From: Cellulosimicrobium marinum | GTDB lineage: Bacteria > Actinomycetota > Actinomycetes > Actinomycetales > Cellulomonadaceae | Length of the DNA: 64,000 nucleotides | Direction: 5' to 3' | Assembly (NCBI RefSeq): GCF_020551945.1 | Contig: NZ_JAJBZH010000001.1 | Coordinates: forward strand, 314,108-378,107 | In this document: piece by piece, positions 1,345-64,000 of the stretch | How positions within the stretch are numbered: position 1 is the stretch's first letter | Layout: the number at the start of each line of letters is the position of its first letter | Position numbers and translations under genes: made by a program | The notes under the pieces: model-generated | Seen by the model: the letters and a program-made list of their open reading frames with translations, nothing else | Database searches by the model: none | What the model was told of the DNA's origin: nothing

Positions 1345-1352
1345 CGGCCTGT

Positions 1353-1394
1353 TGTCAGCGCTCCACGGGTCGGGGGACCGGTGGGGTGCTGACA
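1353..1394. terminator. Strong hairpin between convergent genes, likely bidirectional terminator
   Basis: Arms 1353-1366 and 1381-1394 (TGTCAGCGCTCCAC against GTGGGGTGCTGACA) pair over 14 positions with two G-T pairs or mismatches. An inner GGTC/GACC stem closes on a GGGG loop. It lies 9 bp after one stop codon and 5 bp before the stop of the opposing gene. No long T run is present, as is usual in GC-rich actinobacteria. Confidence 0.75.
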
Positions 1395-1398
1395 GGTG

Positions 1399-1950: not shown

Positions 1951-1998
1951 GCGAAAAGTCTGGCATGCCGGCGGTGGCTCGGGAGTAGCGTCCGGGTG

Positions 1999-2622: not shown

Positions 2623-2670
2623 CCGGACGCCACATCGGCGACCACGGTTCTCCCTCGCAGGACCAGGGTC

Positions 2671-3825: not shown

Positions 3826-3877
3826 TCGTTCGAGTCTACGGGCCGACGGCGCCCGGTCCGCCCCGCGCGGCCCGCCC

Positions 3878-4171
3878 TCAGGCGGGGGCGGGCCTCGTCG
3901 CCTTCCCGTCGAGCCAGAGGGTGTCCGTCTCGTCGCGGTGGCTGCCCTGCGTGCCGACGTGCGTCGAGCCGATCTGCGGGCCCTTCGTGATGACGTGCAC
4001 CATCGCCATGCCGTGACCGCGGCCCAGACCGTAGTCGTCCTTGAGCCACTCGAGGATCGGCCCCGCCTTCGTCGACGCGTCGAACCCGCGCTCGTGCGCC
4101 TTCTCCACCAGCTCGCGCGGCGTGAGCCCCGTCCTGTCCTCGACCGCGTCGAGGTACGCCTGGAACGACAT
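3878..4171 (-). CDS. DUF4287 domain protein
   Basis: 97 residues; ATG at 4171 preceded by GAGGAG seven bases upstream. SFQAYLDAVEDRTGLTPRELVEKAHERGF and GPILEWLKDDYGLGRGHGMAMVHVI match the DUF4287 pattern, a short helical domain of unknown role often followed by a DUF5655 transport domain, which is absent here. The C-terminal tail carries TKGPQIGSTHVGTQGSHRDE. Nothing in the context indicates a function. It is a cytoplasmic protein with no membrane segment. Confidence 0.75.
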   Translation of the reverse strand: MSFQAYLDAVEDRTGLTPRELVEKAHERGFDASTKAGPILEWLKDDYGLGRGHGMAMVHVITKGPQIGSTHVGTQGSHRDETDTLWLDGKATRPAPA

Positions 4172-4314
4172 GGGTGCTCCTCTCGTGCCGGGCCCCGTGC
4201 CCGGTCCAAGGCGTCGACCTGCCGGACCGGCAGAACTCATCGGACCGTCACGCCGCCCGCCGGTGTTCACCCGGAGTTCCACCGGTCGCCACCAAAGGGT
4301 GCGACGCTCCGCGC

Positions 4315-4542
4315 ATGACCGACGAGTCCCGCGAGATCGACGTCGTGGTGCAGCGCATCGCCGACCGCTTCCCCCAGCTCCCCACCGACGAGGTGCGCGA
4401 GCAGGTCCTGGCCGAGCTCGACCGGTTCGACGACGCGCACGTGCGCGACTTCGTGCCCGTGCTCGTCGAGAACGCCGTCATGGACACCTTGCGCTCCTCC
4501 CTCGACCCGACCCCCGTCGCCACCACCGACGAGCCTGCCTGA
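4315..4542 (+). CDS. Small three-helix-bundle dimerisation-domain protein
   Basis: 75 residues. The pattern REIDVVVQRIADRFPQLPTDEVREQVLAELDRF, then HVRDFVPVLVENAVMDTLR, matches the short actinobacterial proteins annotated as three-helix bundle dimerisation domain proteins, also found fused to other domains. The FP-x(5)-V and VRDFVPVLVE signatures are both present. Its molecular role is unknown. It is transcribed away from the DUF4287 gene and toward the STAS gene, 147 bp upstream of it, so the two may share a transcript. Confidence 0.7.
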   Translation: MTDESREIDVVVQRIADRFPQLPTDEVREQVLAELDRFDDAHVRDFVPVLVENAVMDTLRSSLDPTPVATTDEPA

Positions 4543-4689
4543 GCGTCACCTGCCACCGGCGCGTCTCCTGCCCGGCGGCGGTCCCGGCGCCTGCCTGTCG
4601 CGAACCAGCGCGCCCACCGGCCCCCGTTGGGCGGACGGGCGCTTTCGCGCGTACCGTCGTGCCCGCCGACGGAGAGGAGCAGGAGCACG

Positions 4690-5055
4690 GTGGGTGCGGA
4701 CCAGGCAGGCGACGTGACGATCGAGGACGGCGGTTCCCGGTGGGTGATGACGGGTGAGATCGACTTCTCCGTGACGCACCGCGTCAAGCGAGCGCTCGCC
4801 GCGACGATCGACGGGTTCCCCAAGACCGTCGACCTGTCCCGCGTCACGTTCATGGACTCCTCCGGCCTCCACCTCCTGCTCATGAAGGTCACCGCCGCGT
4901 CCCGGCCCCGCCTCGTCAACGCGCCCCAGCAGGTCCACGACCTGCTCGAGATGTCCGGCGCGACGTCGATGGTCGACCACGTGACACGCCCCGTCCCCGA
5001 CCCGCCCGGCACCGGGCGCAGCGCCCACCCCGCCGACGGGGGCCGCGCGTCCTGA
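4690..5055 (+). CDS. STAS domain protein, anti-sigma factor antagonist type
   Basis: 121 residues from GTG with a purine-rich GGAGAGGAGCAGGAG region just upstream; an in-frame start 63 bp earlier is less likely. WVMTGEIDFSVTHRVKRAL and VDLSRVTFMDSSGLHLLLMKV form the STAS core, with the phosphorylatable serine in the DSSG loop (residues about 57-60). Such proteins bind anti-sigma kinases in partner-switching circuits. No RsbW-like kinase or sigma gene is adjacent, so the partner is unknown. The C-terminal 20 residues are Pro/Gly-rich and probably disordered. It is the last backbone gene before the lower-GC island. Confidence 0.8.
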   Translation: MGADQAGDVTIEDGGSRWVMTGEIDFSVTHRVKRALAATIDGFPKTVDLSRVTFMDSSGLHLLLMKVTAASRPRLVNAPQQVHDLLEMSGATSMVDHVTRPVPDPPGTGRSAHPADGGRAS

Positions 5056-5163
5056 CTGGTGGCAACCCCTCCTGCGCGGCGGGCGACATCACCGTCCGTT
5101 GAATCGCACGCCCGCGGCCTGGCGTCATCACGCGGGATGGGCGTCGACGCCTATCTCACCCGG

Positions 5164-5208
5164 CACAACTGTGCAGGTTGTGTGACAGCTGCACGTATCC
5201 TCGCACCT
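5164..5208 (+). promoter_or_regulatory. Candidate leaderless promoter with overlapping dyads upstream of the membrane-GAF gene
   Basis: Two overlapping dyads are visible: CACAAC-N7-GTTGTG (5164-5182) and GTGCAG-N12-CTGCAC (5171-5194). A TATCCT hexamer at 5196-5201 lies 7 bp before the GTG at 5209, and no Shine-Dalgarno sequence is seen. That spacing is typical of leaderless actinobacterial mRNAs. The dyads may be an operator. Inference only. Confidence 0.4.
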
Positions 5209-6039
5209 GTGAGTGGGTCGAGGAAGGTGCTGCGAAGGGTACGCAAGCGCCTGCCCTACTTCGGGTGGACGACGTGGATCCTCCCGACGCTCGCCATCGC
5301 CCTCATCGGCGTGTCCACGTGGTGCGGTGTCCAGGCGGGCGCGGCGGAGACGGAGAAGGGCGAACAAGTCACGCGAGCTCTTCAGATCGGCCTCGCCGCC
5401 GCTTCCGGGTTGCTGACTCTCGTGCTGAAGATGCGCAACGACGCGGCCGAGAGGAAGCGCAAGGCCGACGACATCGACGCGCGGGCCGAGACGGAGATGT
5501 CCTTCAACGACGCGCTGGACCCGCTTGTCGACTCGTTGGCCGAGCTCACCTCATCCGATCCGGACCAGCGCAAGGAGGCGTTCGGCAGCCTGCGAAAGCA
5601 GGCGCTTAACTCGATCATCCACGTCCTGAACGTCCGTCGCGCGCGGGTGAACTACTACGACCTCATGGATGGCGCGGCCACTGATGACGGGAAGGCGCGG
5701 CTGCGTCTTCGAGGGGGTAGCTCGGGCCGCGCGCCGCGCTCTCGCTACGAGTTCGTGGAGGGGACGCCCGAGGGCGACCACGTGCTCGCGCAGCTCAAGG
5801 AAGACCGCGTCGAATTCTGTGACAACGTCCGCAAACATCCTCCGCCCGGCATGGCGGGCAAGCTCCCGCGCAGCTACAAGGCTTACCTCTCCGTACCGTG
5901 TCGCGCGGACGGCGTCGTCTACGGCATGGTCACCGTGGACTCGCCGTACAAGGGCGCGCTGAAGGAGGGCCACGGAGACTTCGTCAGAGTCGTCGCCACG
6001 ATCCTGGCCATCGGCAAGCGACTCCAGGACACGACGTGA
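5209..6039 (+). CDS. Two-helix membrane protein with cytoplasmic GAF-like domain
   Basis: 276 residues from GTG at 5209. A basic N-terminus (SGSRKVLRRVRKRLPY) precedes a hydrophobic helix TWILPTLAIALIGVSTWCGV (about residues 19-38) and a second one, IGLAAASGLLTLVLKM (about 58-73). A charged linker (NDAAERKRKADDIDARAETE) follows. The last 150 residues look like a GAF fold: SIIHVLNVRRARVNYYDLMDG, then SYKAYLSVPCRADGVVYGMVTVDSPYKG and a final helix DFVRVVATILAIGKRL. GAF domains bind small ligands or dimerise; here the domain would sit on the inner membrane face. Base composition is clearly lower in GC than the flanks, which suggests acquisition. No catalytic domain is attached, so it may be a sensor or scaffold. 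Membrane topology is moderately sure, the GAF call likewise. Confidence 0.6.
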   Translation: MSGSRKVLRRVRKRLPYFGWTTWILPTLAIALIGVSTWCGVQAGAAETEKGEQVTRALQIGLAAASGLLTLVLKMRNDAAERKRKADDIDARAETEMSFNDALDPLVDSLAELTSSDPDQRKEAFGSLRKQALNSIIHVLNVRRARVNYYDLMDGAATDDGKARLRLRGGSSGRAPRSRYEFVEGTPEGDHVLAQLKEDRVEFCDNVRKHPPPGMAGKLPRSYKAYLSVPCRADGVVYGMVTVDSPYKGALKEGHGDFVRVVATILAIGKRLQDTT

Positions 6040-6110
6040 CCAACACGTCAGGGTCCCGGACCTTGCATACCGCATCGGTATACTTCATGCTGTCAACACC
6101 AGTCAGCACC

Positions 6111-6131
6111 GCCCCGCACCTGCGGGGCTTT
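6111..6131 (+). terminator. Hairpin after the membrane-GAF gene
   Basis: GCCCCGCA (6111-6118) is the exact reverse complement of TGCGGGGC (6121-6128), followed by TTT. It lies about 70 bp after the stop codon at 6039 and just before the next small gene. Confidence 0.6.
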
Positions 6132-6160
6132 CGCTGTCTGTAGACACCGAGGGAGGGTTG

Positions 6161-6334
6161 ATGGCATTTCGCGTAACTCGACCCGATGACAGGGCGCAAC
6201 GCATCATTCAGGATCCCGACAGCTACTTCCGCGAGGCTCGCGACCGTGCGCGACGCGAGGCTGAGAAGCGTCGGGAACGCGAGTTGCGGCTTGCACGTCA
6301 GCGGACATCGAACAGGGCGATTCACGCGTCCTAG
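6161..6334 (+). CDS. Small basic/acidic coiled-coil-like protein, 57 residues
   Basis: The ATG at 6161 has GAGGGAGG five bases upstream, an excellent ribosome binding site, and the frame closes with TAG at 6332-6334. The product begins MAFRVTRPDDRAQRIIQDPD and continues with a highly charged helix rich in Arg and Glu (REARDRARREAEKRRERELR). I do not recognise a family; short proteins of this style are common in actinobacterial prophages and integrative elements. Lower GC and position between two hairpins fit an accessory gene. It is real mainly on the strength of its ribosome binding site and charged-helix composition. Confidence 0.5.
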   Translation: MAFRVTRPDDRAQRIIQDPDSYFREARDRARREAEKRRERELRLARQRTSNRAIHAS

Positions 6335-6402
6335 TGGTTGAGGGCTCCCCACAACTGCGTGGTCGCCTTCGTCAGTTCGCACCACTGCCAGCGCGCAGTA
6401 GA

Positions 6403-6454
6403 GCACGACGACGGGCCCCGCCCCGCTCCGGCGAGGTGGGGCCCTTCGTCGTGC
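6403..6454. terminator. Long imperfect hairpin between convergent genes, bidirectional terminator
   Basis: The 20-bp arms 6403-6422 and 6435-6454 match at 18 of 20 positions (GCACGACGACGGGCCCC against GGGGCCCTTCGTCGTGC), with a 12-base loop. It ends 9 bp from the stop of the opposing HTH gene. Confidence 0.8.
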
Positions 6455-6463
6455 CCACGAGGT

Positions 6464-6988
6464 CTAGATGCGCGTCTTGTCGATCTCGGGGCTGGCGGTG
6501 AACTGGACGGCGCGGTCGCGTGCGAGGTCCGCGGCGAGGCGCTCGGGGTCGGCTGCGGCGACGGATGCGGCCTGGACGACCCAGGTCTTGCCGACCTTGG
6601 AGCCGGCGAGGGAGCCGGACTTGAGGCGCTGCAGGACGGCCTGACGGCTGATGCCGAGCTGGGCGGCGGCGTCGGTGACGGAGACGAGCCCAGGCACGGG
6701 GGCGATGCCGTTGCGCTGGTCGAACTCGGTTGTGGGCATGACCTCGAGGACGAGGGGCTCGGCGTCGGCGAGCACGGTGGTGCCTGCAGTTGTGGCGATC
6801 GCGAGGGCGGTGCTCAGTGCCTGGCGCAGGTTCTCGGCGGGCAGAGTGATGTCGGCGTTGATCCACCCGCGCTCGCTGCGGGAGACGGCGGGACGATAGT
6901 CGATGAGCGCGCCGACGAGCTCGTCGACGCGGGGGTCGTCGTCGGTGGTTCGGGTGCGCCACTCGATACGGGCGTTGTACTCCGTCAC
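6464..6988 (-). CDS. Island protein with C-terminal MerR/excisionase-type HTH
   Basis: 174 residues. The N-terminal two thirds (EYNARIEWRTRTTDDDPRVDELVGALIDYRPAV, then INADITLPAENLRQALSTALAIA) look like a small alpha/beta domain of about 90 residues that I cannot name. Residues about 103-138 (VSVTDAAAQLGISRQAVLQRLKSG, then KVGKTWVVQ) are a helix-turn-helix of the MerR/excisionase kind that reads DNA. It lies 92 bp downstream of the HicA-like pseudogene on the same strand, in the position expected of an antitoxin or regulator. It could be the autoregulator of this cassette; that is inference. Lower GC than the chromosome backbone. Confidence 0.6.
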   Translation of the reverse strand: MTEYNARIEWRTRTTDDDPRVDELVGALIDYRPAVSRSERGWINADITLPAENLRQALSTALAIATTAGTTVLADAEPLVLEVMPTTEFDQRNGIAPVPGLVSVTDAAAQLGISRQAVLQRLKSGSLAGSKVGKTWVVQAASVAAADPERLAADLARDRAVQFTASPEIDKTRI

Positions 6989-7080
6989 GGGTGGCGCCTC
7001 CTGGTCGTGCGGTGTGCTGGTGGGGGAGGATGGAGTCCTGGGCCCGGGAGGTGCTTTCTTCAGCTCCCGGGCCCTGTCCG

Positions 7081-7286
7081 CTACCGCCTGGGCGGACAGC
7101 GGAACCCGCGGCGCTTGAGCGGGCGAGCGCGTTCAGTACGCTGCGCCGGTCGCTCGGGGTGCCCGATAAGGTCGCGACCTTCTCCCCGTCCCGGGTGTAG
7201 ACCTCGGGGTGACCCTTGCGGTTGATCTGCAACTTGTACCCGGCTGCCTCGATCGCCGCGAGGATCTCCTTGAGGTCCTTGTCCAT
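7081..7286 (-). pseudogene. HicA-like mRNA interferase gene with a one-base frameshift
   Basis: The ATG at 7286 follows AAGGAGG six bases upstream. It encodes MDKDLKEILAAIEAAG, then RKGHPEVYTRDGEKVATLSG and SDRRSVLNALAR, the pattern of actinobacterial HicA-like proteins (amphipathic helix, GHP/GSH histidine, beta hairpin, SDRR...LLARL). Near 7117 the frame breaks. Adding one C would restore LKRRGFRCPPRR and a TAG stop at 7081, exactly the usual C-terminal ending of this family. As written, translation runs on into a low-complexity frame. So the gene has lost one base, or the sequence has an error there. HicA toxins are dsRBD-fold RNases that cleave mRNA and need an antitoxin; the neighbouring HTH protein is not a recognisable HicB. 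Confidence 0.6.
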
Positions 7287-7658
7287 GGTCTCCTCCTTCC
7301 GTCTTTCTGACAAGAGAACAACCCTGCCGCACGTTGCTAACTAGCAAGCCAGGGAGCGAGATCGGTTCGGAGAGTTCGAAAGGTGTTCGAGCGCGCGCAC
7401 GCTGGGGGCGTGAGTGAGTAGGACGATGGACGCGAACGGCCACTTGGTGCAGCGCATCGTCAACGCGCATCCATACCACTGCTCCGTGCGCAGCGCACGG
7501 GGTGGGCGCGGTGTCGCGCGCGGATAGTCTGCGAGCTCGATGGTGAGGAGCGGATCGACACCTACGCCTACGCGTGGACGGCCCCCCCGCGCTCGTCCAG
7601 CGCCCGCGCGACGACCACCGGTGGGCGGGCATCGGGGTCTGGATGGGCGCTGGGGACC
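7287..7658. other. 372-bp region without a convincing intact gene
   Basis: It contains the ribosome binding site of the HicA-like gene, a dyad at 7334-7347, a palindrome CCGTGCGC-A-GCGCACGG at 7484-7500, and on the plus strand a possible protein fragment (VCELDGEERIDTYAYAW, then after a frameshift in a C7 run at 7583-7589, RDDHRWAGIGVWMGAGDL). That fragment may be the tail of a decayed gene, but I cannot identify it. Confidence 0.4.
7334..7347. promoter_or_regulatory. Dyad TTGCTA-N2-TAGCAA upstream of the HicA-like gene
   Basis: A perfect 6+2+6 dyad 48 bp before the start codon at 7286 on the minus strand, placed where an operator of the cassette would lie. It resembles the TTGC-N5-GCAA dyads in front of the MarR gene at 21.0-21.5 kb. 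The binding protein is unknown. Confidence 0.35.
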
Positions 7659-8555
7659 TCACTCGTCGGAGTCGTTGACGCCCTCAGGTGCTGGCGGAAG
7701 CACCTCGAACGGGAAGGACACGTGGACGTCGGCGCCGTCGCGACCGTGCTGGTGGTGCTCGACGCCGCGGACTCGCGCGGAGATCGTCACGTACTGGTGC
7801 CGGACTTCGGTGAAGGTGTAGGCAACGCGGACGGTACCCCCGGAGGGGATCGACTCGTGGTGGGCGATCGTCTCGCCGCGGTCAAGGTGCTGCTGGAACC
7901 CAGATGAGAGGTCGGGCATCGCGATAACCTCGAGCTCGCGGTCGTGCGGGTCCACGAACGTGGCCTCGATCTCCACGCGCTCGCCCAGTCCGACGAGGAC
8001 GTCGACGTCGACGTAGACAACCCTGCGGCTCGCCCACGACGAGAGCTTCTCGGCGGTGGCGACGCGGCCGCGGGAGTCGGAAGCGGCGGCGACGCGCGGG
8101 TAAAAGGTGCCGGTCGGATGCTGCTCGCTCATGTACCTACCGATCCTGTTCTGTAGTTCGACGGCCACGCCGGACAAGATGTCGCGCGCCGACGCCGGGA
8201 GGCCGCGCCCATGCATGACGTCGTTCCGGTACTCGATGACTCGACGGAGCAGCGGGTCGATGTCACGCTCGTCGCCCAGCGCCTCCTCGAGCGGTGTCCA
8301 CTCCTTCCTCGCCATGATCACGAGGTCTTCCAGGCGGGTGAAGTCGAGCTCGCTCGTGGCCCCGGCGACGCGCGCTTCGTCGTCGGCGACGGCCTCGAAC
8401 GCCGCACGCGACTTCCGCGCGTTGTCCCGGATCTTGGTGTTCGAGAGCTCGTCGTACCAGTCGGGCCCGAAGGCGCGCCGGTAGGCATGATCAAGGAGTT
8501 GTCGCAATGACCTCTCGATCGAGATCGCAGCGTCGTAAGGCTCGAAGGTCGTCAC
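7659..8555 (-). CDS. Swt1-like HEPN domain protein (putative RNase or RNA-binding)
   Basis: 298 residues from GTG at 8555. The N-terminal 150 residues form a helical domain, ISIERSLRQLLDHAYRRAFGPDWYDEL, ending in VIEYRNDVMHGRGLP. The R110-N-D-V-M-H115 element is the Rx4-6H motif of HEPN RNases, and the helix before it with conserved GxxWxxxL resembles the Swt1-like HEPN family. The C-terminal half (about 165-298) is beta-rich: VVYVDVDVLVGLGERVEIEATFVDP, then GGTVRVAYTFTEVRHQYVTISARVRG. It ends in an acidic tail. HEPN proteins commonly act as toxins in toxin-antitoxin and phage defence modules. Its GTG overlaps the stop codon (GTGA) that a repaired upstream metallopeptidase frame would use, so the two were once one operon. 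Activity is not proven. Confidence 0.7.
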   Translation of the reverse strand: MTTFEPYDAAISIERSLRQLLDHAYRRAFGPDWYDELSNTKIRDNARKSRAAFEAVADDEARVAGATSELDFTRLEDLVIMARKEWTPLEEALGDERDIDPLLRRVIEYRNDVMHGRGLPASARDILSGVAVELQNRIGRYMSEQHPTGTFYPRVAAASDSRGRVATAEKLSSWASRRVVYVDVDVLVGLGERVEIEATFVDPHDRELEVIAMPDLSSGFQQHLDRGETIAHHESIPSGGTVRVAYTFTEVRHQYVTISARVRGVEHHQHGRDGADVHVSFPFEVLPPAPEGVNDSDE

Positions 8556-9206
8556 GTCGGATCCTCTCCTAGATCGGTGAACGCGGCGAGGAGCCGCCGC
8601 GCCTGCTCGACGTTGCCGCGGTGACGTCCTCCTCGTAGAACCAGGTCCTGCTCTCAGCGGGCGGCGTGAGCGCGACGGCGATCGCCTCCGCGGAGGTCTC
8701 GTAGCCGAGGTTTGTATCTGGCTCGGTGTAGTCGAACTGAGCGCCGAACACTGCCTTGAGGTACGCGTCGTCGAGGTCGAGAAGTTGGTTCAGGATGTGT
8801 CCGAGCTCGTGCCTCACAGTCGTCTGGATGTGTTGCTCGAGCAGCTCGTAGTCGACGCTGGCGTCGCCGCCCGTCGCGTAGGCGGCGACGTCGTTCGCGA
8901 TCCATACCTTCGGGCGGTTGCCCCACTCGGGCGCTGCCTCCATCACCGTGCCCCAGTAGGCCCAGTCGTCGGAGGACGGGACGAACGGCCACTCGACATC
9001 GCACACACCGGAAGTCCGGCCTCGCCCAGTCGGCGGATCTCTTCCCACGCGATCGGGTCGACGACCCCGGCCGGGGCGTCCGGGACGCAGCTCGTACCCG
9101 GCGTAGTCGCCCTGTACGCCTAGTAGGCGGGCCGGGTCTCGGCGACCATCGACGAGCCGACCGCCCACACCGACGCTCCGAGCACGGCGACGAGGAGCGC
9201 GGCCAT
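8552..9206 (-). pseudogene. Broken secreted HELGH metallopeptidase-like gene (copy 1)
   Basis: From ATG 9206 the frame encodes an N-terminal hydrophobic segment (MAALLVAVLGASVWAVGSSM), then hits a TAG at 9121. It continues as TPGTSCVPDAPAGVVDPIAW, LGEAGLPVC, and loses frame near 9004 at a duplicated TG (GTGTGTGC). The next frame gives DVEWPFVPSSDDW, KVWIANDVAAYATGG, TTVRHELGHILNQLLDLDD and FGAQFDYTEPDTNLGYETSAEAIAVAL. Near 8620 one G is missing; restoring it gives GNVEQARRLLAAFTDLGEDP and a TGA at 8552-8554 that overlaps the HEPN start. HELGH is a zinc-metallopeptidase motif, with a downstream glutamate in ETSAEA. At least three lesions make it non-functional as read. Homologous to the sequence at 10.04-10.87 kb. 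Confidence 0.7.
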
Positions 9207-9234
9207 GCTGCGGCCGCGGCCCCCTGGCGCCGCG

Positions 9235-10082
9235 TCATGCTAGCGACCCTACGGATGCCGCGGCGCCGATCACAGGGCTACCGGCGAAGTTCACCCGGCG
9301 GTCGGTCCCCCCAGGGCTCGTCTGCGTCCGCACGGCGCGCACGATCGCGCACACCGCGGACTTGTCCAGACTGAGCTCGGCGGCGATGGCGCGTCCGGAC
9401 TGGGTGGTCGTCCGTGCGGGCGGATGATGTCCGCGCGGTGCTCGGCGACGCGTCCGCGCGCGGACGTCCGTCCGCTCGGGCGCGACGCCGGCCTCCGTCC
9501 GGACGTCCGTCGTGTCCGCCGTCGGGCTGTCCGTCGTCTCAGCGGCGACCCGGACACTGTCCGCGGGCGGGGTGTCCGGCGTGCGACGTGTCCTGTCCGG
9601 CGTCCTGCTCGTCGCCCGTCCGGCCGTCCGCCCGTCCGGCGCTCGCGGACGTCTGTTCGGTGTCTGCCTTGCCTGCGATGTCCGGACGAGGAGCGAACGC
9701 GACGTGCGCGACGACGTGCGCGGCGGCGAGCGTCATGAACGGGGGCATGCCCGTGAGGCCCGCCTCTACGGCGCCCTGCCAGCTCTGGTCGCCAGCGCCC
9801 CAGGCGTGCAGCGCGTTCCGTGCGGACGAGACCGTGGTCAGGGCCCACACGAGCGTCCAGGGAGACGGGCACGTTCGCCGCGGTGGGTGCGGATGAACGC
9901 GACGGCGACGAAGGCGAGCATGGCAACCTTGAGCGCGACCGGGGCACGCCATGCGAAGTAGGCGGGATCGACGCCCAGGGCGCAGCGGCGGACAGTCCCA
10001 TGAAGGACAGCGTGAAGCTCGCGGCCGCGACGGCGACTAGCACGACGAGCAGCCTGGCGAGGACGGGGACGGTTGCGGACAT
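9235..10082 (-). pseudogene. Broken DUF2637 (Spd/AICE-type) membrane-HTH gene
   Basis: The ATG at 10082 opens MSATVPVLARLLVVLVAVAA, then FTLSFMGLSAAAPWASIPP. A missing base at about 9960 moves to YFAWRAPVALKVAMLAFVAVAFIRTHRG. Another shift near 9855 gives LVWALTTVSSARNALHAWGA, GDQSWQGAVEAGLTGMPPFM and LAAAHVVAHVAFAPRP. A last shift leads to SGRAIAAELSLDKSAVCAIV and a stop at 9235. Three or four membrane helices followed by a disordered linker and a HTH tail is the layout of DUF2637 proteins, which are common on actinomycete integrative conjugative elements and plasmids next to transfer and spread genes. At least three frameshifts are needed to read it. It lies between the two metallopeptidase remnants. 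Confidence 0.65.
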
Positions 10083-10873
10083 GCTCGACGCGGTGGTGCG
10101 AGGGCGGCGGCCTCGACGTGATCGGCGAACAGCGCGCGGTTGGTTGAGATCGGGCGGACGGCGGCCCGGACGGCGCCGGGGCAGCATCGTCCGGGGCCGT
10201 CCTGCATATAGGGGTTGTGCGTTGTGGTGACCGCGTTGAGCACGAGCACTGCCACGGTCGAGTTCTGGGCGGGCACGTCCTCGTCGTAGAAGACGGTCCG
10301 CTGCTCGTCGTCGGGGGTCAGGGCGAGCGCCAGCGCCTCGGCCGACGCCTCGTGCCACGGCCTCGTCCCGGGGTGCGTCACCTCGAGGTCCGCGACGAAC
10401 AGGCGCTCGAGGGAGATCTCGTCGAGGCCGAGCATGTAGGTCAGGGCGTGCCCGAGCTCGTGCCTGACGGTGGTGCGCACGTGCTGCTCGAGCAGGTCGC
10501 CGTCGACGTGGTCCTCGCCGTCCTCGGCGTAGGCCGCGACGTCGTGCACGATCCACACCGTCGGCAGGTCGCCCTCGCCGCGGCTCGGCGCGGCCCAGCC
10601 CCACCACCACCACTCGTCCCGATCGGGCACGAGCTGCCAGTCGACGTCGCACACCGGCAGGCCGGCCTTCCCGAGACGCTCGATCTCCGCCCAGGCGATC
10701 GCGTCGTGCGTGCCCAGCGCCTCGTCGGGCACGCACGACGTGCCCGGCGTCGCGGGGGAGTAGGCGGCGAAGCGCTCCGGCTCGTGGGCCGGGTCGGCGC
10801 TCGCGGCGGACCCGGCGAGCAGCGCCGGTGTGGCCAGGGCGAGGGCCGCGGCGACGGTGCGGCGGCAAACCCT
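10037..10873 (-). pseudogene. Second HELGH metallopeptidase-like gene, lacking a start codon (copy 2)
   Basis: A frame beginning about 10873 reads a signal-peptide-like stretch, RRTVAAALALATPALLAG, then SADPAHEPERFAAYSPATPG, TSCVPDEALGTHDAIAWAEI, LGKAGLPVCDVDWQLVPDRD, PTVWIVHDVAAYAEDGED, TTVRHELGHALTYMLGLDE and ASAEALALALTPDDEQR. It matches copy 1 along its whole length and keeps the HELGH zinc motif intact. No ATG, GTG or TTG lies in frame between the signal segment and the tRNA, so its 5' end appears lost about 70 bp from tRNA-Lys. The C-terminus after FYDEDVPAQNST differs from copy 1 and runs into the DUF2637 region. A short internal GTG (10732) could still yield the catalytic part without export. 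Probably secreted originally. Confidence 0.6.
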
Positions 10874-10942
10874 GTGCCCAACAACTGCCCAGCGAGTTCG
10901 AACGTGCGTTCGTCCGCTGGGGTGTTTTCCCAGGTCAGAGGG

Positions 10943-11015
10943 TGGGCCCCCCGGGGTTCGAACCCGGAACCTACGGATTAAAAGTCCGCAGCTCTGCCAG
11001 TTGAGCTAGAGGCCC
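10943..11015 (-). tRNA. tRNA-Lys(TTT)
   Basis: 73-nt gene read on the minus strand from 11015. Acceptor GGGCCTC pairs with GGGGCCC, the D arm is GCTC/GAGC, the anticodon stem-loop is GCGGA-CTTTTAA-TCCGT with anticodon TTT, and the T arm contains GGTTCGAACCCC. The discriminator base is A and CCA is not encoded (CCC follows). The 3' end faces the decayed island, a usual arrangement for an integration site. Confidence 0.95.
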
Positions 11016-11330
11016 GTGACGTCCGTCTGCGCGCGGGTGCGCCGGGACGTCGACACGCACAGGGTACGCGGGACGGGAGCGTCCTGCGGGCGCCGTCGGC
11101 TCGCGCGGGCGCGTACCGTACGCGGGGTCGGCCGACCTGTCAGGTGGGGTCTTGCTCCGTGAGAAGTTCGGTGAGATCGGGGCGATTCGCTTGCGAGCCC
11201 CCGGCGTTCTTGCTTGGTTGGTAGAGACCGAGGGGCCCGCGGGAGGGTGCACCGACGGCTGGTCGCACCACTCCAGGTGCGTGCCGCTCGACGTGTCCCG
11301 TAGCCCCGCCCGGCGACGAGAGGAGCTCTC
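11016..11330. other. 315-bp intergenic region upstream of the IscA-like gene
   Basis: It carries the upstream promoter region of tRNA-Lys and the leader of the 11331 gene, whose GTG is preceded by GAGAGGAG. Short GC-rich inverted repeats are present, but I see no coding frame, RNA gene or strong operator. Confidence 0.5.
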
Positions 11331-11612
11331 GTGCTTACCCTGACCGACAACGCACGTACCGCTGTCCAGGACCTCACCACGCAGGCCGGTGTCCCCGAGG
11401 GAGGCGGTCTGCGGATCGCCGAGTCGACGGACCAGGCCGGCAGCTTCGAGCTCGCGCTCGTTCCCGCCCCGCAGCCCGACGACGAGGTCGTCGAGAACGG
11501 CGAGGCGAAGGTCTTCGTGGAGGCCCAGACCGTCCAGACGCTGTCGAACCTCACCCTCGACACGGACCCGAACGCTCAGGGTCCGTCGTTCGTCCTGACT
11601 CCTCAGGGCTGA
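11331..11612 (+). CDS. HesB/IscA-like iron-sulfur cluster biosynthesis domain protein
   Basis: 93 residues from GTG at 11331, with GAGGAG seven bases upstream. LTLTDNARTAVQDLTTQAG and GGLRIAESTDQAGSFELALV followed by PDDEVVENGEAKVFVEAQTV match the HesB/IscA-like fold found in actinobacteria as a stand-alone protein. It lacks the three cysteines that bind iron or the cluster in true A-type carriers (no Cys in the whole protein), so it probably does not carry clusters in the classical way. Its role is therefore uncertain; stress-related Fe-S handling is only a guess. It is monocistronic, followed by two hairpins. Confidence 0.75.
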   Translation: MLTLTDNARTAVQDLTTQAGVPEGGGLRIAESTDQAGSFELALVPAPQPDDEVVENGEAKVFVEAQTVQTLSNLTLDTDPNAQGPSFVLTPQG

Positions 11613-55785: not shown

Positions 55786-56778
55786 ATGGACCTCGAACTG
55801 CGGCACCTGCGGATGATCGTGGCCGTGGCCGAGTCGGGCAGCGTGACGAAGGCCGCCGCGTCGCTGGGCGTGGCCCAGCCCGCGCTGACCGCCCAGCTCA
55901 ACCGGATCGACCGGTCGCTGGGCGGGTGCGTCTTCACGCGCGACCGTCAGGGGGCACGTCCGACCGAGCTCGGTGAGCTCGTCCTGCGCCACGCGCGCGT
56001 CCTGCTGCCGGCGATGTCGGCCCTGGTCGACGACGCGCGCCACCTCCTCAGCGCCGTCCCGTCGGGCCGGACGGTGCGCGTGGGGACGGTGAGCACGGCG
56101 ATCGGCGGGCTCTTCGCGCGCCGCCTGCACGAGACGCTGCCCGCGGCGGCGCCCGGCCTGACCGTCACGACGGCCACGTCGTGGAGCGTCGACGACACGG
56201 CCGAGCGGCTCGCGGCGGGCACGCTCGACGCCGCGCTCGTCGGCATGTGCGGCGACTCGCGCCCTCCCGGCCCGGGGCTGACGTGGACGGCGGTGCGCAC
56301 CGACCCCGTGTTCGTCCTCGTCGACGAGCGGCACCCGTGCGCCGGGCGTGGCGTCGTGGGCCTCGGCGAGCTCGCGGACGCGCTGTGGCTGTCCGCGCCG
56401 GGCAGCGGCTGCTTCGAGCAGTGCTTCGTCGCGGCGTGCGCCCGTGCGGGGTTCACGCCGCGCGCGATGGGCGAGTCGGACCGGACGGCGTGCATCGACC
56501 AGGTCCGGGGCGGGCACGCCGTCGCGCTCGTCCAGCCCGTGCTGCTCGACGCCCCCGGCGTGCGGACGGTCGCGCTCGACGGCGCGCCGCTGCGCTGGAC
56601 GCACCACGTCGGCTGGCGGCACGACGCGGGGGAGCGCCTGCCCGTGCACGTGGTCGCCGCGGCGGCCCGCTCCGCGCACCGGGACGCCGTCGCGCGCTCG
56701 CCCTACTACGCGCGGTGGCTCGTCGAGCACGGGGCGGGTACGGGTACGGGACCACCCGGACATACCGCCCGGGTATGA
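55786..56778 (+). CDS. LysR-family transcriptional regulator
   Basis: 330 residues from ATG 55786. DLELRHLRMIVAVAESGSVTKAAASLGVAQPALTAQLNRIDRSLG is the LysR winged HTH with the linker helix. Residues 95-300 form the periplasmic-binding-protein-like ligand domain (RTVRVGTVSTAIGGLFARRL, LDAALVGMCGDSR). The last part includes AARSAHRDAVARSPYYARWL. The gene lies 85 bp upstream of the secreted protease gene on the same strand; it may control it or belong to another regulon. There is no adjacent divergent target, which is unusual for LysR. Confidence 0.9.
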   Translation: MDLELRHLRMIVAVAESGSVTKAAASLGVAQPALTAQLNRIDRSLGGCVFTRDRQGARPTELGELVLRHARVLLPAMSALVDDARHLLSAVPSGRTVRVGTVSTAIGGLFARRLHETLPAAAPGLTVTTATSWSVDDTAERLAAGTLDAALVGMCGDSRPPGPGLTWTAVRTDPVFVLVDERHPCAGRGVVGLGELADALWLSAPGSGCFEQCFVAACARAGFTPRAMGESDRTACIDQVRGGHAVALVQPVLLDAPGVRTVALDGAPLRWTHHVGWRHDAGERLPVHVVAAAARSAHRDAVARSPYYARWLVEHGAGTGTGPPGHTARV

Positions 56779-56863
56779 CCTGAATGGCATCTGTGCGGCG
56801 TCGGGGAGCCCGCCTAGCGTGACCTCGACCGGGTCACCCGGGCCCGGCGAAGGGACGGACGAC

Positions 56864-58372
56864 ATGACACGACCACTCCCCAGGGCGCTCGCCGCGGTCA
56901 CCGCCGCCGCGACGCTCCTCGCGGGTTCCGCCGCGGCACAGACCGCCGCCGCGGCCCCCGCACCGGCCCCCGACGAGACCCGCGCGACGGTGCGCGCGGT
57001 CCCGAAGACGGCCCCCGGCCTGGAGCGCGCGCTGCAGCGCGACCTGGGCCTCAGCGCGCGCGACGCACGGCAGCGTCTCGCGTTCCAGTCCGACGCCGCG
57101 GGCACCGAGGCCGAGCTCGAGGACGAGCTCGGCGCGGACTACGCGGGTGCGTGGGTCGACGACGACGCCAACGTGCTCTACGTGGGGGTCGCCGAGGGCG
57201 CGTCCGCCGCGGACTCCGCCGCGGTCCGCGCCGAGGGGGCGCGCGCCGTCGCCGTCGCGCACTCGCTCGACGACCTCGAGACGTGGCGCGGTGCGCTCGA
57301 CGACGCCCTCGCCGACGACCCCGCCGCCCTCCCCGGCTGGTACGTGGACGTGACGCGCAACCGCGTCGTCGTGTCCGTGCGGGCGGGCGAGCGCGCGGAG
57401 GTGGCCGCGCAGGTCGCGGCCGCGGGCGTCCCGGCGGACGCGGTCGCGTACGCCGAGACCACGGAGACGCCCCGGCCCCTGATCGACGTGGTGGGCGGCA
57501 ACGCGTACACGATCGGCGGCGGGAGCCGCTGCTCGGTCGGGTTCGCGGTCCAGGGCGGGTTCGTCACGGCCGGGCACTGCGGCTCCACGGGCGCGCGGAC
57601 GTCCGGGCCGGCGGGCACGTTCCGCGGGTCGAGCTTCCCCGGCAACGACTACGCGTGGGTGCAGGTCGACGCCGGCAACACCCCCGTCGGGGCCGTGAAC
57701 AACTACTCCGGCGGACGCGTCCCGGTCGCAGGCGCCACGCAGGCCCCCGTCGGGTCGTCGGTGTGCCGCTCCGGCTCCACCACGGGCTGGCACTGCGGCA
57801 CCGTCCAGGCGTACAACGCCTCGGTGACGTACCCGCAGGGCACGGTCACCGGTCTCATCCGCACGAACGTGTGCGCCGAGCCGGGGGACTCCGGCGGCTC
57901 CCTCCTCGCGGGCAACCAGGCGCAGGGCGTGACGTCCGGCGGGTCGGGCAACTGCCGCAGCGGCGGGACGACGTACTTCCAGCCCGTCGGGGAGATCCTC
58001 TCGACGTACGGGCTGACCCTCGTCACGAGCGGCGGCGGCGGCAACCCCGAGCCGCCGACGGGGTGCTCGGGCTACGCGCGCACCTACACGGGCTCGCTGT
58101 CGTCCGGCGCGACCGCGGTCCAGCCGAACGGGTCCTACTTCACCGTCGGGTCGTCCGGCACCCACCGCGGCTGCGTCACCGGTGCGAGCGGCACCGACGT
58201 CGACCTGTACCTGCAGAAGTGGAACGGGTCCGCGTGGGCGTCGGTCGCGAGCTCGACGTCGCCCGGCGCGAACGAGTCCGTCACCTACGCGGGCACGCCC
58301 GGCTACTACCGGTACGTGGTCCACGCGTACTCGGGCTCCGGGTCGTACACGCTGGGAGTCACGACGCCGTGA
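56864..58372 (+). CDS. Secreted alpha-lytic-type (S1) serine protease with pro-region and C-terminal domain
   Basis: 502 residues from ATG 56864. The signal peptide (AVTAAATLLAGSAAAQTAAA) is followed by a pro-region of about 160 residues (LERALQRDLGLSARDARQRL, WYVDVTRNRVVVSVRAGERA) that acts as intramolecular chaperone in this family. The mature protease begins near IDVVGGNAYTIGGGSRCSVG. The triad is GFVTAGHCG (His238), GNDYAWVQV (Asp262) and CAEPGDSGGSLLAG (Ser343), with disulfides CSVG...GHCG, CRSG...WHCG and VCAE...GNCRS. A Gly-rich linker (SGGGGNPEPP) joins a C-terminal beta domain (GTDVDLYLQKWNGSAWASVA, GYYRYVVHAYSGSGSYTLGV), typical of PPC secretion domains. Closest known type: Cellulomonas/Streptomyces proteases. 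Confidence 0.94.
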   Translation: MTRPLPRALAAVTAAATLLAGSAAAQTAAAAPAPAPDETRATVRAVPKTAPGLERALQRDLGLSARDARQRLAFQSDAAGTEAELEDELGADYAGAWVDDDANVLYVGVAEGASAADSAAVRAEGARAVAVAHSLDDLETWRGALDDALADDPAALPGWYVDVTRNRVVVSVRAGERAEVAAQVAAAGVPADAVAYAETTETPRPLIDVVGGNAYTIGGGSRCSVGFAVQGGFVTAGHCGSTGARTSGPAGTFRGSSFPGNDYAWVQVDAGNTPVGAVNNYSGGRVPVAGATQAPVGSSVCRSGSTTGWHCGTVQAYNASVTYPQGTVTGLIRTNVCAEPGDSGGSLLAGNQAQGVTSGGSGNCRSGGTTYFQPVGEILSTYGLTLVTSGGGGNPEPPTGCSGYARTYTGSLSSGATAVQPNGSYFTVGSSGTHRGCVTGASGTDVDLYLQKWNGSAWASVASSTSPGANESVTYAGTPGYYRYVVHAYSGSGSYTLGVTTP

Positions 58373-58461: not shown

Positions 58462-59154
58462 TCAGGCGAGGAGCGCCGGGCCGTAGCTCACGACGACGAG
58501 GATCGCGAGCGCCACGAGCCACGCCGCGACGAGGTACCCGTACGCGCCGGACCGCACGAACCCGAGCAGCCGCTCCTGGGCGCGCCGGGGCAGGTAGAGG
58601 TTGTCCTCCAGCACGTTCCAGTGCAGGAGCGAGGCGAACACGAGGGTCGTGGAGACGGTGATGAGCAGGCACCACGGGCACAGCGCCCCGATGACGACCA
58701 TCGACTGGTAGAAGAGCCAGTACGCGAACACGACGCCGAGGAAGTGCACGCACTGCGCGGCGAAGAGGAACCAGCGCGGGAACCGCGTCCCGCCGAGCGA
58801 CGCGACCGCGACCGTGATGACGATCGGTTCCGCGACCAGCCCCAGGAACGCGTTCGGGAAGCCGAACACCTGCGCCTGCCACGACTGCGCGACCGTGCCG
58901 CACGACAGCACGGTGTTCACGTCGCACGCCAGGGTCGCGGTGGGGTTCGCGGCCAGCACCACCGCGTCGTACGACAGCACGAACGCGGCCGTGAGGCTGA
59001 GCAGCCCGAACACGAGCATCTCGCCGAACAGGACGGCGCGGGAGTGCGTCCACCCGGTGGGCCGCTCCAGCGGGTCGTACCCGCCCCGGGTGCCCGACGA
59101 CGCGCGCGCGCCCGCACCCGGCCGGTCGGCGAGGGCGGTGGTCACGTCGGTCAT
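58462..59154 (-). CDS. Vitamin K epoxide reductase (VKOR) family protein
   Basis: 230 residues from ATG 59154, five membrane helices: VLFGEMLVFGLLSLTAAFVL, FPNAFLGLVAEPIVITVAVA, FLFAAQCVHFLGVVFAYWLF, VVIGALCPWCLLITVSTTLV and YLVAAWLVALAILVVVSYG. Cys77 and Cys85 (ACDVNTVLSC) form the loop pair, and Cys159-Cys162 (CPWC) is the quinone-facing active-site pair. Bacterial VKORs reoxidise DsbA-like proteins using menaquinone, so it supports disulfide formation in secreted proteins such as the adjacent protease. No DsbA domain is fused, as often in actinobacteria. Divergent from the Wadjet operon. Confidence 0.93.
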   Translation of the reverse strand: MTDVTTALADRPGAGARASSGTRGGYDPLERPTGWTHSRAVLFGEMLVFGLLSLTAAFVLSYDAVVLAANPTATLACDVNTVLSCGTVAQSWQAQVFGFPNAFLGLVAEPIVITVAVASLGGTRFPRWFLFAAQCVHFLGVVFAYWLFYQSMVVIGALCPWCLLITVSTTLVFASLLHWNVLEDNLYLPRRAQERLLGFVRSGAYGYLVAAWLVALAILVVVSYGPALLA

Positions 59155-59434: not shown

Positions 59435-61015
59435 GTGCTGCACGACGACGTCGAGGACCTGCGGCGGTCGAGCGCGGCATGGCGTCTCCTGCGCGCCGAC
59501 ACCGCCCCCCTCGTCCTGTCCTTCCTCGGCACCGTGTTCGTCGAGGAGAACGTGCGCGCCATCCCCGAGAGCGCGCTCGTCGCCCGCCTCGACGACCACC
59601 TGTACGCCCTGCACCGCGCCGACGCGCCCGGCACCGAGCCCCGCTACCCGCGCGCCCCGCAGGCGTACGTCGACCACTGGGCGCACCCCGACCAGGGCTG
59701 GTTGCGCGCCTGGTACCCGCCCGGGTCCGCCGAGCCCCACTACGACGCCACGCCCGCCGTCGAGCAGGCCGTGCGGTGGGTCACGTCCCTGCACGGGCGC
59801 GCGTTCGTCGGCACGGAGTCGCGCCTCGCGACCGTGTTCGAGCTCCTGCGCCAGCTCGCCGTCGGCACGCAGACCGACCCGGCCGAGCGGCTCCGCGAGC
59901 TCGAGGAGCGGCGCGCCCGCATCGACGACGAGATCGCCCAGGTGCGCGCCGGCCGGCTCGCCGTCCTCGACGCCGCTGCGCAGCGCGACCGCTACCAGCA
60001 GCTCACCCAGACCGCCGCCGACCTGCTCTCCGACTTCCGGGAGGTCGAGGCGAACTTCCGCACCCTCGACCGGGGGCTGCGGGAGCGGATCACCGGGTGG
60101 GACGGCGCGAAGGGCGAGCTCCTGGAGGAGGTCGTCCGCTCGCGCAGCGCCATCGCCGAGTCCGACCAGGGCCGCTCCTTCCACGCGTTCTACGACTTCC
60201 TCCTCGACCGCGGCCGGCAGGAGGAGTTCGCCCGCCTCGTCGAGCAGGTCCAGGGGCTCGACGCCCTCGCCGCCGACGACCCCGACGCGCACGCCGCCGA
60301 GCACCGCCGGCTGCGGCGCGTCCACTACGACTGGCTCGACGCCGGGGAGCGCACCCAGGCGACCGTGCGGACCCTGTCCGAGCAGCTGCGACGCTTCCTC
60401 GACGACCAGGTCTGGCTCGAGAACCGCCGCGTCATGGACCTCCTGCGCGGCATCGAGGCGAAGGCGCTCGCGGTGCGCGACGCCGCTGCCGCCGGTGCGG
60501 GCACGCCCCCGGGCGCGACCGTCGACGCCGTCGCCCCGGAGGTCGTGCTGCCCACGGAGCGACCCCTGTTCGCGCCGCGGCCCGTCGCGCGCGTCGACTC
60601 CGACCACGTGGAGAGCGGCGACGACGACTTCGAGGTCGGGGCGCTCTACGAGCAGGTGCACGTCGACCCCGACCGCCTCGCCCGGACCGTGCGGGGCGCG
60701 CTCGCCGGGCCCGGGGCCCGGTCGCAGGTCTCGCTCACCGACCTCGTCCGCGACGCCCCGCTGGAGCACGGGCTCGCGGAGCTCGTCACGTACCTCTCCC
60801 TCGACGACCCCCGGTTCGCCGTCGTGCACGACGACGACGCCACCGACGAGGTGAGCTGGCTCGGGGAGCCGCCGCCCGCCGTCGGGCACGCCGACGAACC
60901 CGCGGCGGAGCGCCCCGGGACGCAGCCCGTGGTGCGCGTCGCGCGCCTGCCCCGGGTCACGTTCGCGCGTCGCGGACCCACGACCGCCCCCGCCCGCACC
61001 GAGGAGGACCAGTGA
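59435..61015 (+). CDS. jetA: Wadjet protein JetA (DUF3375, MksF-like kleisin)
   Basis: 526 residues from GTG 59435, with GGAAGG nine bases upstream. [20 protein letters not shown] then [20 protein letters not shown] is the DUF3375 start. A winged-helix-like N-terminal domain (residues about 1-170) includes [20 protein letters not shown] and [21 protein letters not shown] long coiled coil follows ([41 protein letters not shown]). The C-terminal half contains [40 protein letters not shown]. JetA is the kleisin of the Wadjet SMC complex and bridges the two JetC heads. It overlaps jetB by GTGA. Length and motifs fit JetA/MksF. It opens the operon downstream of the inverted repeat. Confidence 0.93.
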
Positions 61016-61716
61016 GCACGTCGGCCGCCCCGACCCGTCCCGCGCGCAGCCCCGAGCTGTCCGTCGTCGTCACGTCCCTGCTCAAGGGCGTCGTCTACCG
61101 CGAGACGAGCCCCGAGACGTGGCGCGACCTGCTCGCGCACGACGCGCAGGTGCGCGACGCGGTGGCGCTGCTCGGCCTCCAGGTCGTGGTCGACGACGGC
61201 GACGGGTACGCGTTCCTGCGCTCGCAGCCGGAGCACGAGCGCGACGAGCGGGTGCCGCGGCTCGTCCCGCGGCGCGAGCTGCCGTTCGACGTGAGCCTCC
61301 TGCTCGCGCTGCTGCGCAAGCGGCTCGCGCAGGCCGACTCCGAGGGGGGCGAGACGCGGCTCGTGCTCGCGCGCGCCGAGATCGTCGACCTGCTGCGCGT
61401 GTTCCTCGCGCAGGACGCGGGCGCCGCGGCGAACGAGGCACGGCTCGTGGACCGCGTGGACGCGCTCGTGCGCCGCGTGGTCGAGCTGGGCTTCCTGCGG
61501 CCGGCGGACCCGGGGGACGACGCCGCGGGGTCGCCGGACGGCGGCGGGGCGGCGGACGGCGACGGGCCGGGCGACGCGCGGCGCTACGAGGTGCGCCGCA
61601 TCCTCAAGGCGTTCGTCGACGCGCAGTGGCTCGCGGACCTCGACGCGCGGCTCGCCGCCTACCTCGACGTGGCGGCAGGCCGGACGGACGGGACGACGAA
61701 GGGCACGGTGGCGTGA
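61012..61716 (+). CDS. jetB: Wadjet protein JetB (DUF4194, MksE-like KITE subunit)
   Basis: 234 residues from GTG 61012 (overlap GTGA with jetA). [45 protein letters not shown] is the DUF4194 start. DGYAFLRSQ, then [20 protein letters not shown] and [17 protein letters not shown] form the first winged helix. [20 protein letters not shown] and [27 protein letters not shown] form the second, with a Gly/Asp-rich insert (residues about 167-190) between them. JetB dimerises and binds the JetA kleisin. Its TGA shares the A with the JetC ATG (TGATG), so synthesis is coupled. Confidence 0.93.
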
Positions 61717-64000
61717 TGGAGGGCCTGTTCAGCGCGGTAGAGCTGCACGACCCGGCGGCCGACGTCGACGCGCGCGCCGGGTTCCGGCTCGAACGGCTCG
61801 AGGTGCTCAACTGGGGCACGTTCGACCAGCGGGTGTGGGCGTTCGACCTGGACGGGCGCAACGCGCTCCTCACGGGCGACATCGGCTCGGGCAAGTCGAC
61901 GGTGGTCGACGCGGTGACGACGCTCCTCGTGCCGTCGCACCGCATCTCCTACAACAAGGCGGCGGGTGCGGGTGCGCGCGAGCGGTCGCTGCGGTCGTAC
62001 GTCGCGGGCCACTACAAGGCGGAGCGTGACGAGGCGACGGGTGCGACGCGGCACGTCGGCCTGCGCGAGCGCGGCACGTACTCCGTGGTCCTCGGGCGGT
62101 TCGCGAACCGCGGGTTCGAGCAGGAAGCCACGCTCGCCCAGGTGTTCTGGCTCGCGCCGGGGCAGACGGGCCAGCCCGACCGGTTCTTCGTCACGGCCGA
62201 CCGGCCCCTGACGGTCACGGAGGACTTCGCCGGGTTCGGCGGCGACGTGGCGGCGCTGCGGCGGCGCCTGCGCGAGTCCGGCGCGCAGGTGCGCGACCAC
62301 TTCCCCGAGTACGGGCGCGACTTCCGGCGCCTGCTCGGCATCCCGTCGGAGCAGGCGATGGACCTGTTCCACCAGACGGTGTCCATGAAGTCGGTGGGCG
62401 ACCTCGGCGAGTTCGTCCGCGAGCACATGCTCGAGCCGTTCGACGCGCAGCGCTGGACCGACCGGCTCGTCGCCCACTTCGACGACCTCACGAGCGCGCA
62501 CGACGCGGTCGTGCGCGCGACGGCACAGGTCGCCCGGCTCGTCCCGCTGCTCGCCGACTGCGACGCGCACGACGCGCTCGGACGTCGTGCGGAGGCGGTC
62601 ACGGCGCGACGGGACGCCCTGCGCGCGTTCACGGCGTCGCGGCGGGTCGCGGACCTCGACGGGCTCATCGGCGCGCTGGAGGAGCGGGTCGCGGACGGCG
62701 ACGCGCGGCGGGCGCGCATCGGCGACGAGCTCGGCGCCCTCGGGTCGGAGCGGCAGCGGCTCGAGCTCGAGCGCGCGGGCCACGGCGGGGACCGGCTGGC
62801 CGCGATCGAGGGCGAGGTGGCGCGCCGCGAGGTCGAGCGCGCCGCGCGCGAGCGCCGCGTCACCCAGCTCGCGGGGTACGCCGCGCAGGCGGGCGGGTCG
62901 TCCGGGGCCCCGGCCGACGGTGAGGGCCAGGCCCGGCAGGCCGTCGCGGACGCCCTCGTCGACGCCACCGCGTTCGCCGCGCTGCGCGCCGACGCCGACG
63001 ACGCCGCCCGCACGGTCCGCGACGACCTCGCCCGCGTCGAGGAGGAGGTGGGCGAGGTGTCGGCGGCGGTGCGCGCCGTCGAGCAGGAGACCGCCGAGGT
63101 CAAGGCCGAGCTCGCGAGCCTCGCCGACCGTCGCTCCAACCTCCCGCGCGCCCACCTCGACGTGCGGGACCGGCTGAGCGCCGGCGTCGGCCTCGCCCCG
63201 GGCGACCTGCCGTTCGTCGGCGAGCTGCTCGCGGTGCGGCCCGAGCACGAGGACTGGGAGGGCGCGGCCGAGCGGGTCCTGCGCCCCTTCGCGCTCTCGC
63301 TGCTCGTCCCGGTCGCGCACGCCGACGCCGTCGCGGCGTGGGTCGACCGGGAGCACCTGGGGCTGCGGCTCGTCTACCACCGCGTGCCGGAGCAGGTCGC
63401 GCCGCCGCGACAGGCCGACCGGCCCGACGGCGTGCTCGTCCTCGCCGACCTGCTCGACGTCCGCGCGCTCGACGACGCGCCCGCGCTCACCGCGTGGGTC
63501 GAGGCCGAGCTGGAGCGCCGCGCCGACCACGCGTGCGCCGACGACCTCGCGGCGTTCCGCCGCCTGCCGCGCGCCGTGACCCGCGCGGGCCAGGTCAAGC
63601 ACTCGCCCGACCACCACGAGAAGAACGACGTGCGCGCCGTCGACGACCGGCGCGGGTACGTGCTCGGCTGGTCCACGCAGGCGAAGGTCGACGCGCTGCT
63701 GGAGCAGGCGGCCGAGGTGACGGCGCGGCGCGACGACCTCGCGCGGCGTCGGGACGCCGTCGTCGCCCGGCGCACCGCGCTCCAGGCGCGCGCGACCGCC
63801 CTCGGGCGCCTGGACGTGTACCGCGACTGGGACGAGCTGGACTGGCGCGCCGAGGTGGCCCGCGTCGCCGAGCTCGACGACGAGAAGCGTCGCCTGGAGC
63901 AGGCGAGCGACGAGCTCGGGCGCATCGCCGCCGCGCTCACCGCGAACGCGCGCGCCCACGCCGCCCTGGAGGCCGACCGGGACGACGTCGTCGCGACCCT
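61716..64000 (+). CDS. jetC: Wadjet protein JetC (SMC/MukB-like ATPase), N-terminal 761 residues; runs off the window end
   Basis: ATG 61716 opens a frame that stays open to base 64000, so at least 761 residues; JetC is usually about 1100 residues, so roughly the last third is missing. [22 protein letters not shown] leads to Walker [18 protein letters not shown] (GDIGSGKST, residues 54-62). [22 protein letters not shown] is the conserved Wadjet block. Arms of coiled coil (residues about 270-420) surround [35 protein letters not shown], the hinge segment. Beyond this are further coiled-coil helices. JetC loops plasmid DNA by ATP-driven extrusion; small circular DNA is then cut by JetD, which must lie beyond 64000. 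Walker B and signature motifs are not in view. Confidence 0.95.

Follow-up and report, generated by a model that had tools for sequence, protein, structure and literature searches.

Wadjet systems are the closest described relatives of the locus analysed here. According to excerpts of PMC10586767, their JetABC part is an ATP-dependent shape sensor, which is thought to extrude DNA loops, and JetD cuts. Type I Wadjets are represented by EptABCD of Mycobacterium smegmatis and MksBEFG of Corynebacterium glutamicum, and in the excerpted part of PMC10123090 the MksB of C. glutamicum has no chromosome effect. In Pseudomonas aeruginosa, the JetD-less MksBEF works alongside SMC in the organisation and segregation of the chromosome (excerpts of PMC7485682). 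An origin of MksBEF by loss of JetD has already been proposed, and the relation of SMC defence complexes to chromosomal condensins has been called unresolved (both in passages of PMC10586767). We analysed a window of 64,000 nucleotides from Cellulosimicrobium marinum (contig NZ_JAJBZH010000001.1; G000:C1:314108-378107), at the right-hand edge of which the original prediction had placed a Wadjet (JetABCD) anti-plasmid system. Our results showed that the locus is JetABC without JetD, and that it exists beside Smc-ScpAB in the same genome.

The three jet genes lie head to tail on the forward strand and overlap. The first gene, jetA (kleisin, DUF3375; 59435..61015), encodes 526 amino acids from a GTG start and matched PADLOC JetA1 (E=2.8e-189) and Pfam DUF3375 (1.6e-138). 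The second gene, jetB (KITE, DUF4194; 61012..61716), encodes 234 amino acids; its product matched PADLOC JetB1 (E=6.1e-79) and passed the Pfam cut-off for both DUF4194 (1e-38) and MksE (2.9e-11). The third gene, jetC (MukB-like SMC ATPase; 61716..65258), encodes 1180 amino acids and matched PADLOC JetC1 (E=0, 1364 bits), AAA_29 (1.7e-23) and SbcC_Walker_B (9.7e-23). It passes the window end at 64000, and its last 1258 bases were read in a right-hand extension (L009, C1:372500-391500; window position = L009 position + 58392), where jetC occupies 3324-6866 with an intact reading frame. The matching PDB chains for the three proteins were Wadjet JetA, JetB and JetC. The assignment of the three genes to the type I Wadjet families is far beyond chance. 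The predicted gene order and domains were thus borne out by PADLOC and Pfam, and the ATPase was assigned by profile search to JetC and not to a different SMC, RecN or SbcC family. The finer details also agreed: jetA and jetB overlap by 4 bases (GTGA), the jetB/jetC junction is TGATG, and the Walker A of JetC (GDIGSGKST) sits exactly at residues 54-62. The Gly/Asp-rich linker of JetB, predicted at about residues 167-190, was found at about 165-190. The other ATPase motifs of JetC are SGGQ (signature motif, 1050-1053) and VVIDEAF (Walker B, 1085-1091).

The headline of the original prediction did not hold. In the sequence past the window edge, jetD was not found directly after jetC; a convergent TetR regulator gene (L009:6863-7546, reverse strand) follows instead and overlaps the last bases of jetC. 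The two families by which JetD was expected to be recognised, JetD_C (PF09983, C-terminal) and DUF3322 (PF11795, N-terminal), had no match in the whole genome at E<=10, and Corynebacterium glutamicum, the positive control, matched in both searches. Searching the genome with the protein sequence of a related JetD likewise gave no match; this search had no positive control. The genome is 99.99% complete and assembled in 14 contigs. Because jetD is missing both beside jetC and genome-wide, there is no four-subunit Wadjet nuclease. MksBEF, which had been offered as the alternative name, is right in the sense of a three-subunit MukB-like SMC complex without MksG/JetD.

The locus agrees with type I Wadjet in the families of JetA, JetB and JetC, in the order of the genes and in their overlapping junctions, and the PADLOC type I models fit it best. 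It differs by lacking the cleaving subunit JetD, which is needed in all published anti-plasmid activity, and by its stable position beside core genes in three genera. With Pseudomonas aeruginosa MksBEF it shares the form of a three-gene MukB-like condensin without nuclease beside Smc-ScpAB, and a JetB that passes the MksE cut-off. However, its closest relatives are JetD-carrying actinobacterial Wadjets, and therefore, within the reach of our trees, which do not contain the Pseudomonas proteins, JetD would have been lost in an event of its own. The architecture of MukB-like SMC, kleisin and KITE is that of MukBEF (excerpts of PMC10586767), but the match to the MukB N-terminal model was sub-threshold (20.8 bits versus a cut-off of 23). 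Smc-ScpAB is likewise a loop-extruding SMC complex and the genome holds both, with a canonical Smc (on C11) and ScpA. JetC reached 29 bits against the SMC_prok_B cut-off of 567, whereas the true Smc reached 911 bits.

The distribution of JetA and JetD was then compared at several ranks. Of 150 genomes of the family, 122 have DUF3375 (JetA); the 22 that have JetD_C all belong to these 122, so JetD-less JetABC is the prevailing form. JetA was present in all 17 genomes of the same genus (our genome included), and 16 of them had no JetD_C match. The sole JetD-bearing congener (G106) holds a complete JetABCD at a second locus on another contig (L067). At the level of the class (296 genomes), JetA was over the cut-off in 51 and JetD_C in 32, some of the latter being weak partial matches. 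In 296 genomes of the phylum, JetC was found at E<=1e-50 in 8, our genome included. JetC matched 6 of 72,556 plasmid records at E<=1e-40, none of them from Cellulosimicrobium, which is uninformative.

For comparison at locus level, 120 further loci were added to our own (121 in total). They were chosen from the listed JetA matches, with long contigs favoured and a spread over genera, and are a non-random sample. A trimmed JetD profile found JetD in 36 loci (35 at 369-457 bits; L182 in two frames), and in those examined JetD directly follows jetC. The other 85 loci had no match above 12 bits. Four of these lack the stretch after jetC (the sequences of L064, L065 and L134 stop within or at jetC; L143 has no jetC) and were called JetD-less from genome-wide searches; in G087, the home of L134, the sole JetD_C match is at L133. 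The apparent JetD remnants seen with the untrimmed profile in JetD-less loci (18-106 bits) were spurious, as its first ~150 positions correspond to another frame of the jetC 3' end; the partial JetD of L137 (106 bits) was gone after trimming. Of the 36 genomes that hold a locus with JetD, 15 also have a JetABC without it, which argues that the JetD-less form has a different job. In L143 (G379, same order), jetA (3485-5038) and jetB (10596-11318) are separated by ~5.5 kb and no jetC match was found in the stretch; this locus is interrupted or rearranged.

The direction and number of JetD losses were read from JetC trees. The first tree contained 116 of the 121 loci (without L064, L065, L115, L143 and L172); it was a quick tree without a mixture model, and several long branches were flagged. 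The clade of our locus has 16 rows from four genera (g1, g11, g19, g23), none with JetD. It is nested in a clade of 30 rows; JetD is present in each of the other 14, which come from 6 families. At least 15 changes of JetD state are needed over the whole tree. The trees of JetD and JetC agreed with each other over 35 JetD-carrying loci (Mantel r 0.94, a value reached in 0 of 2000 permutations; 22 of 32 splits common), and therefore JetD was lost and not gained.

The nearest JetC relatives were also collected from named genomes. Among the best 80 of 158, a JetD match was found in 61; those without one were 11 loci of Cellulosimicrobium type, 10 of them under that name, and 5 from Gordonia, and 3 loci end too early for a call. 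The 61 include the Gordonia hydrophobica locus L209, where JetD comes from a separate upstream Jet set. In this record (NBRC 16057, 1-11417), two Jet systems stand in tandem: first a JetABCD with jetC in two frames and JetD at 4625-5848, and immediately after it a JetABC without JetD, whose jetA frame starts from 5852. A second tree of 93 JetCs was built from 66 of the 80 named loci and 27 earlier rows, leaving out L187-L196 and L198 (Cellulosimicrobium loci that are partial or near-identical) and L248, L251 and L259 (cut ends). It was rooted on distant JetD-carrying rows, and no single branch set the named outgroup exactly apart from the rest. This tree requires JetD to change state twice, and forcing all 19 JetD-less rows into one clade was rejected by the approximately unbiased test (p-AU 0.0001). 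These results therefore indicate independent losses in the Cellulosimicrobium group and in Gordonia: by the trees, JetD was lost in Cellulosimicrobium and three sister genera, and Gordonia forms an independent JetD-less clade.

Another JetD-less clade (L100, L108, L113, L119, L130, L132 and L134; genera g3, g7 and g14) lies among 9 JetD-carrying rows, with its loci beside F420-ligase and DUF218 genes. Its position suggests a third loss. Within genus g7, L133 has JetD and L101 and L137 do not, the flanking genes are alike, and the JetC of L101 differs from that of L133 by only 0.061 nonsynonymous substitutions per nonsynonymous site (dN). By this comparison, the g7 site appears to record a recent loss or gain of JetD at one place. 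Repeated, polarised losses of JetD in actinomycetes are what is new beyond the proposed origin of MksBEF. No description of JetD-less JetABC in actinomycetes was found in a full-text literature search, which was licence-limited, did not include preprints and is no proof of novelty.

The genomic position was compared in 80 of 81 loci (the jetC of L106 was not placeable). In three genera (g1, g11 and g23), jetABC lies within a few genes of PAP2-topA. At least two flanking families were common with another genus in 13/18 loci of our type and 36/44 other JetD-less loci (total 49/62), versus 3/18 JetD-carrying loci (Fisher p 2.4e-6, relatedness ignored). With one locus per genus, the means were 14.3 of 19 JetD-less and 0.5 of 11 JetD-carrying. 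JetD-less loci are positionally stable, and JetD-carrying loci mostly are not. The difference between jetC and its flanks in GC content at third codon positions (GC3) was tried as a sign of mobility and rejected: the mean was 0.032 for JetD-carrying and 0.014-0.016 for JetD-less loci, which is not significant (p=0.19).

The sequences of the three genes are under purifying selection. The ratio of nonsynonymous to synonymous substitution (dN/dS) was calculated by the Nei-Gojobori method at high GC content, and its values are for comparative use only. In 7 within-genus pairs it was 0.13-0.21 for jetC, 0.17-0.27 for jetA and 0.21-0.36 for jetB, compared with 0.04-0.20 for topA and 0.07-0.39 for the TetR gene. 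In two between-genus pairs, where synonymous saturation is likely, the jet genes gave 0.26-0.67 and topA 0.19-0.21. All three ATPase motifs were kept in 16 of 16 complete JetCs of our clade; the motif expressions are too strict for other JetC clades and were applied to this one only. Most columns conserved in the JetD-carrying sisters were also kept in our clade (JetA 116/125, JetB 42/47, JetC 273/289). The lost columns were scattered and did not outline a decayed JetD-contact surface; they were slightly denser in JetA 50-100 (4/14) and JetC 600-650 (3/16), for which there was no control. The IFDR motif of JetB was tried as a marker of JetD loss and did not discriminate; it occurred in 0 of 77 JetBs. 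An LFxGDxGxL-like motif occurred in 11/17 JetD-carrying, 0/18 own-type and 38/42 other JetD-less JetBs. The JetD-carrying sisters L081, L086 and L087 are also without the LFxGDxGxL-like motif.

Taken together, a type I Wadjet core lost JetD in Cellulosimicrobium and three sister genera, and jetABC was then kept intact and largely in place; we consider it probable that it is now an accessory chromosome condensin. That relatives keep the three-gene version in place points to the conversion of a defence machine into one that handles chromosomes. From published JetABC biochemistry and Pseudomonas MksBEF, JetA, JetB and JetC would form a dimeric, ATP-driven DNA loop extruder. Without JetD such an extruder could no longer cleave circular DNA, and alongside the canonical Smc-ScpAB it may now work as an accessory condensin of the chromosome. 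We infer this role from conservation and precedent. Several points weigh against it. In most pairs the dN/dS of jetABC was higher than that of topA. Random sets of 18 JetD-less loci showed flank sharing in a mean of 11.5 with a minimum of 2, and the positional stability could come partly from JetD-less loci being more numerous and closer kin. The Pseudomonas MksBEF precedent belongs to another branch of the superfamily, and its proteins lie outside these trees. A JetD could in principle lie in a gap of the 14-contig assembly.

A broader statement stands, in our judgement, at an even chance: repeated loss of JetD in actinomycetes would have made resident condensins, passed on vertically, out of mobile Wadjet immune systems, with Cellulosimicrobium and its three sisters and Gordonia as two independent events and the g3/g7/g14 clade as a suggested third. 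At least 15 genomes have both forms, whose jobs are presumably separate. Whether a defence system became a housekeeping one can be tested directly on the outgroup-polarised loss, its replicate in Gordonia and the contrast of L133 with L101/L137 at one site. JetA-C models would lead to the label 'Wadjet' for the locus, yet plasmid cleavage is not to be expected.

An unlikely alternative is that the locus still serves defence without cleavage, so that small circular DNA is sensed by full extrusion and then silenced, compacted or blocked in partition. In the model given in excerpts of PMC10586767, JetABC alone provides shape and size sensing, and the same excerpts mention that Smc5/6 is proposed to compact circular DNA, viral circles, without cutting. 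The retained sister-conserved columns would also fit. However, anti-plasmid activity in B. subtilis needs all four subunits (excerpts of PMC10586767), deletion of mksG in C. glutamicum is like deletion of mksB (excerpts of PMC10123090), and a defence locus would not usually be so stable in position or present in all sampled congeners. More doubtful still is defence with a nuclease in trans, in which an unlinked and unrelated nuclease replaces JetD. Unlinked partners are invisible to neighbourhood analysis, and decay of the JetD-binding surfaces was not demonstrated; but no conserved replacement effector gene was found beside jetC among the loci compared, and the JetD families are absent from the genome. 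That the locus is a decaying Wadjet remnant on its way out seems very improbable: jetD is gone and jetB is the fastest evolving of the three genes, but the frames are open, the ATPase motifs are intact, selection is purifying and the locus is kept across four genera. A complete Wadjet with jetD elsewhere or missed can hardly be credited, since it is refuted at the locus and, in spite of the 14 contigs and the complete JetABCD at another locus of G106, neither JetD family matched in a nearly complete genome, JetD directly follows jetC where it was examined, and JetD_C was not matched in 16 of 17 genomes of the genus.

In family f1 (e.g. L083, L103, L112 and L140), a second large lineage of JetABC without JetD was observed in several genera, with JetD in a few loci (L122 and L128). 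It is flanked by a leucyl-tRNA synthetase gene and by a stretch of glycogen-phosphorylase, HerA-helicase, DegV-like and com-like genes. A record titled Sphaerisporangium cinnabarinum has a JetC 85% identical to that of Cellulosimicrobium, and a metagenome bin titled Bifidobacterium breve has a JetABCD of soil-actinobacterial type; both (the L194/L201 pair) are possibly mislabelled or mixed. The JetC of L196, a named congener, is split over two frames.

Around our locus, the TetR gene after jetC is followed by a PAP2 phosphatase gene and then by a gene that we take from its sequence to be topA. Upstream of jetA lies a divergent VKOR-family gene (58462..59154, reverse strand; Pfam VKOR 3.8e-32), and most loci of the genus likewise have a gene of this family upstream of jetA. 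Two genes upstream of jetA there is a secreted-protease-like frame (56348-58372, forward strand). A counterpart in the same genus (L068:700-2202) has a match to the alpha-lytic protease prodomain family, and members of this gene family also stand upstream of jetA in related loci.

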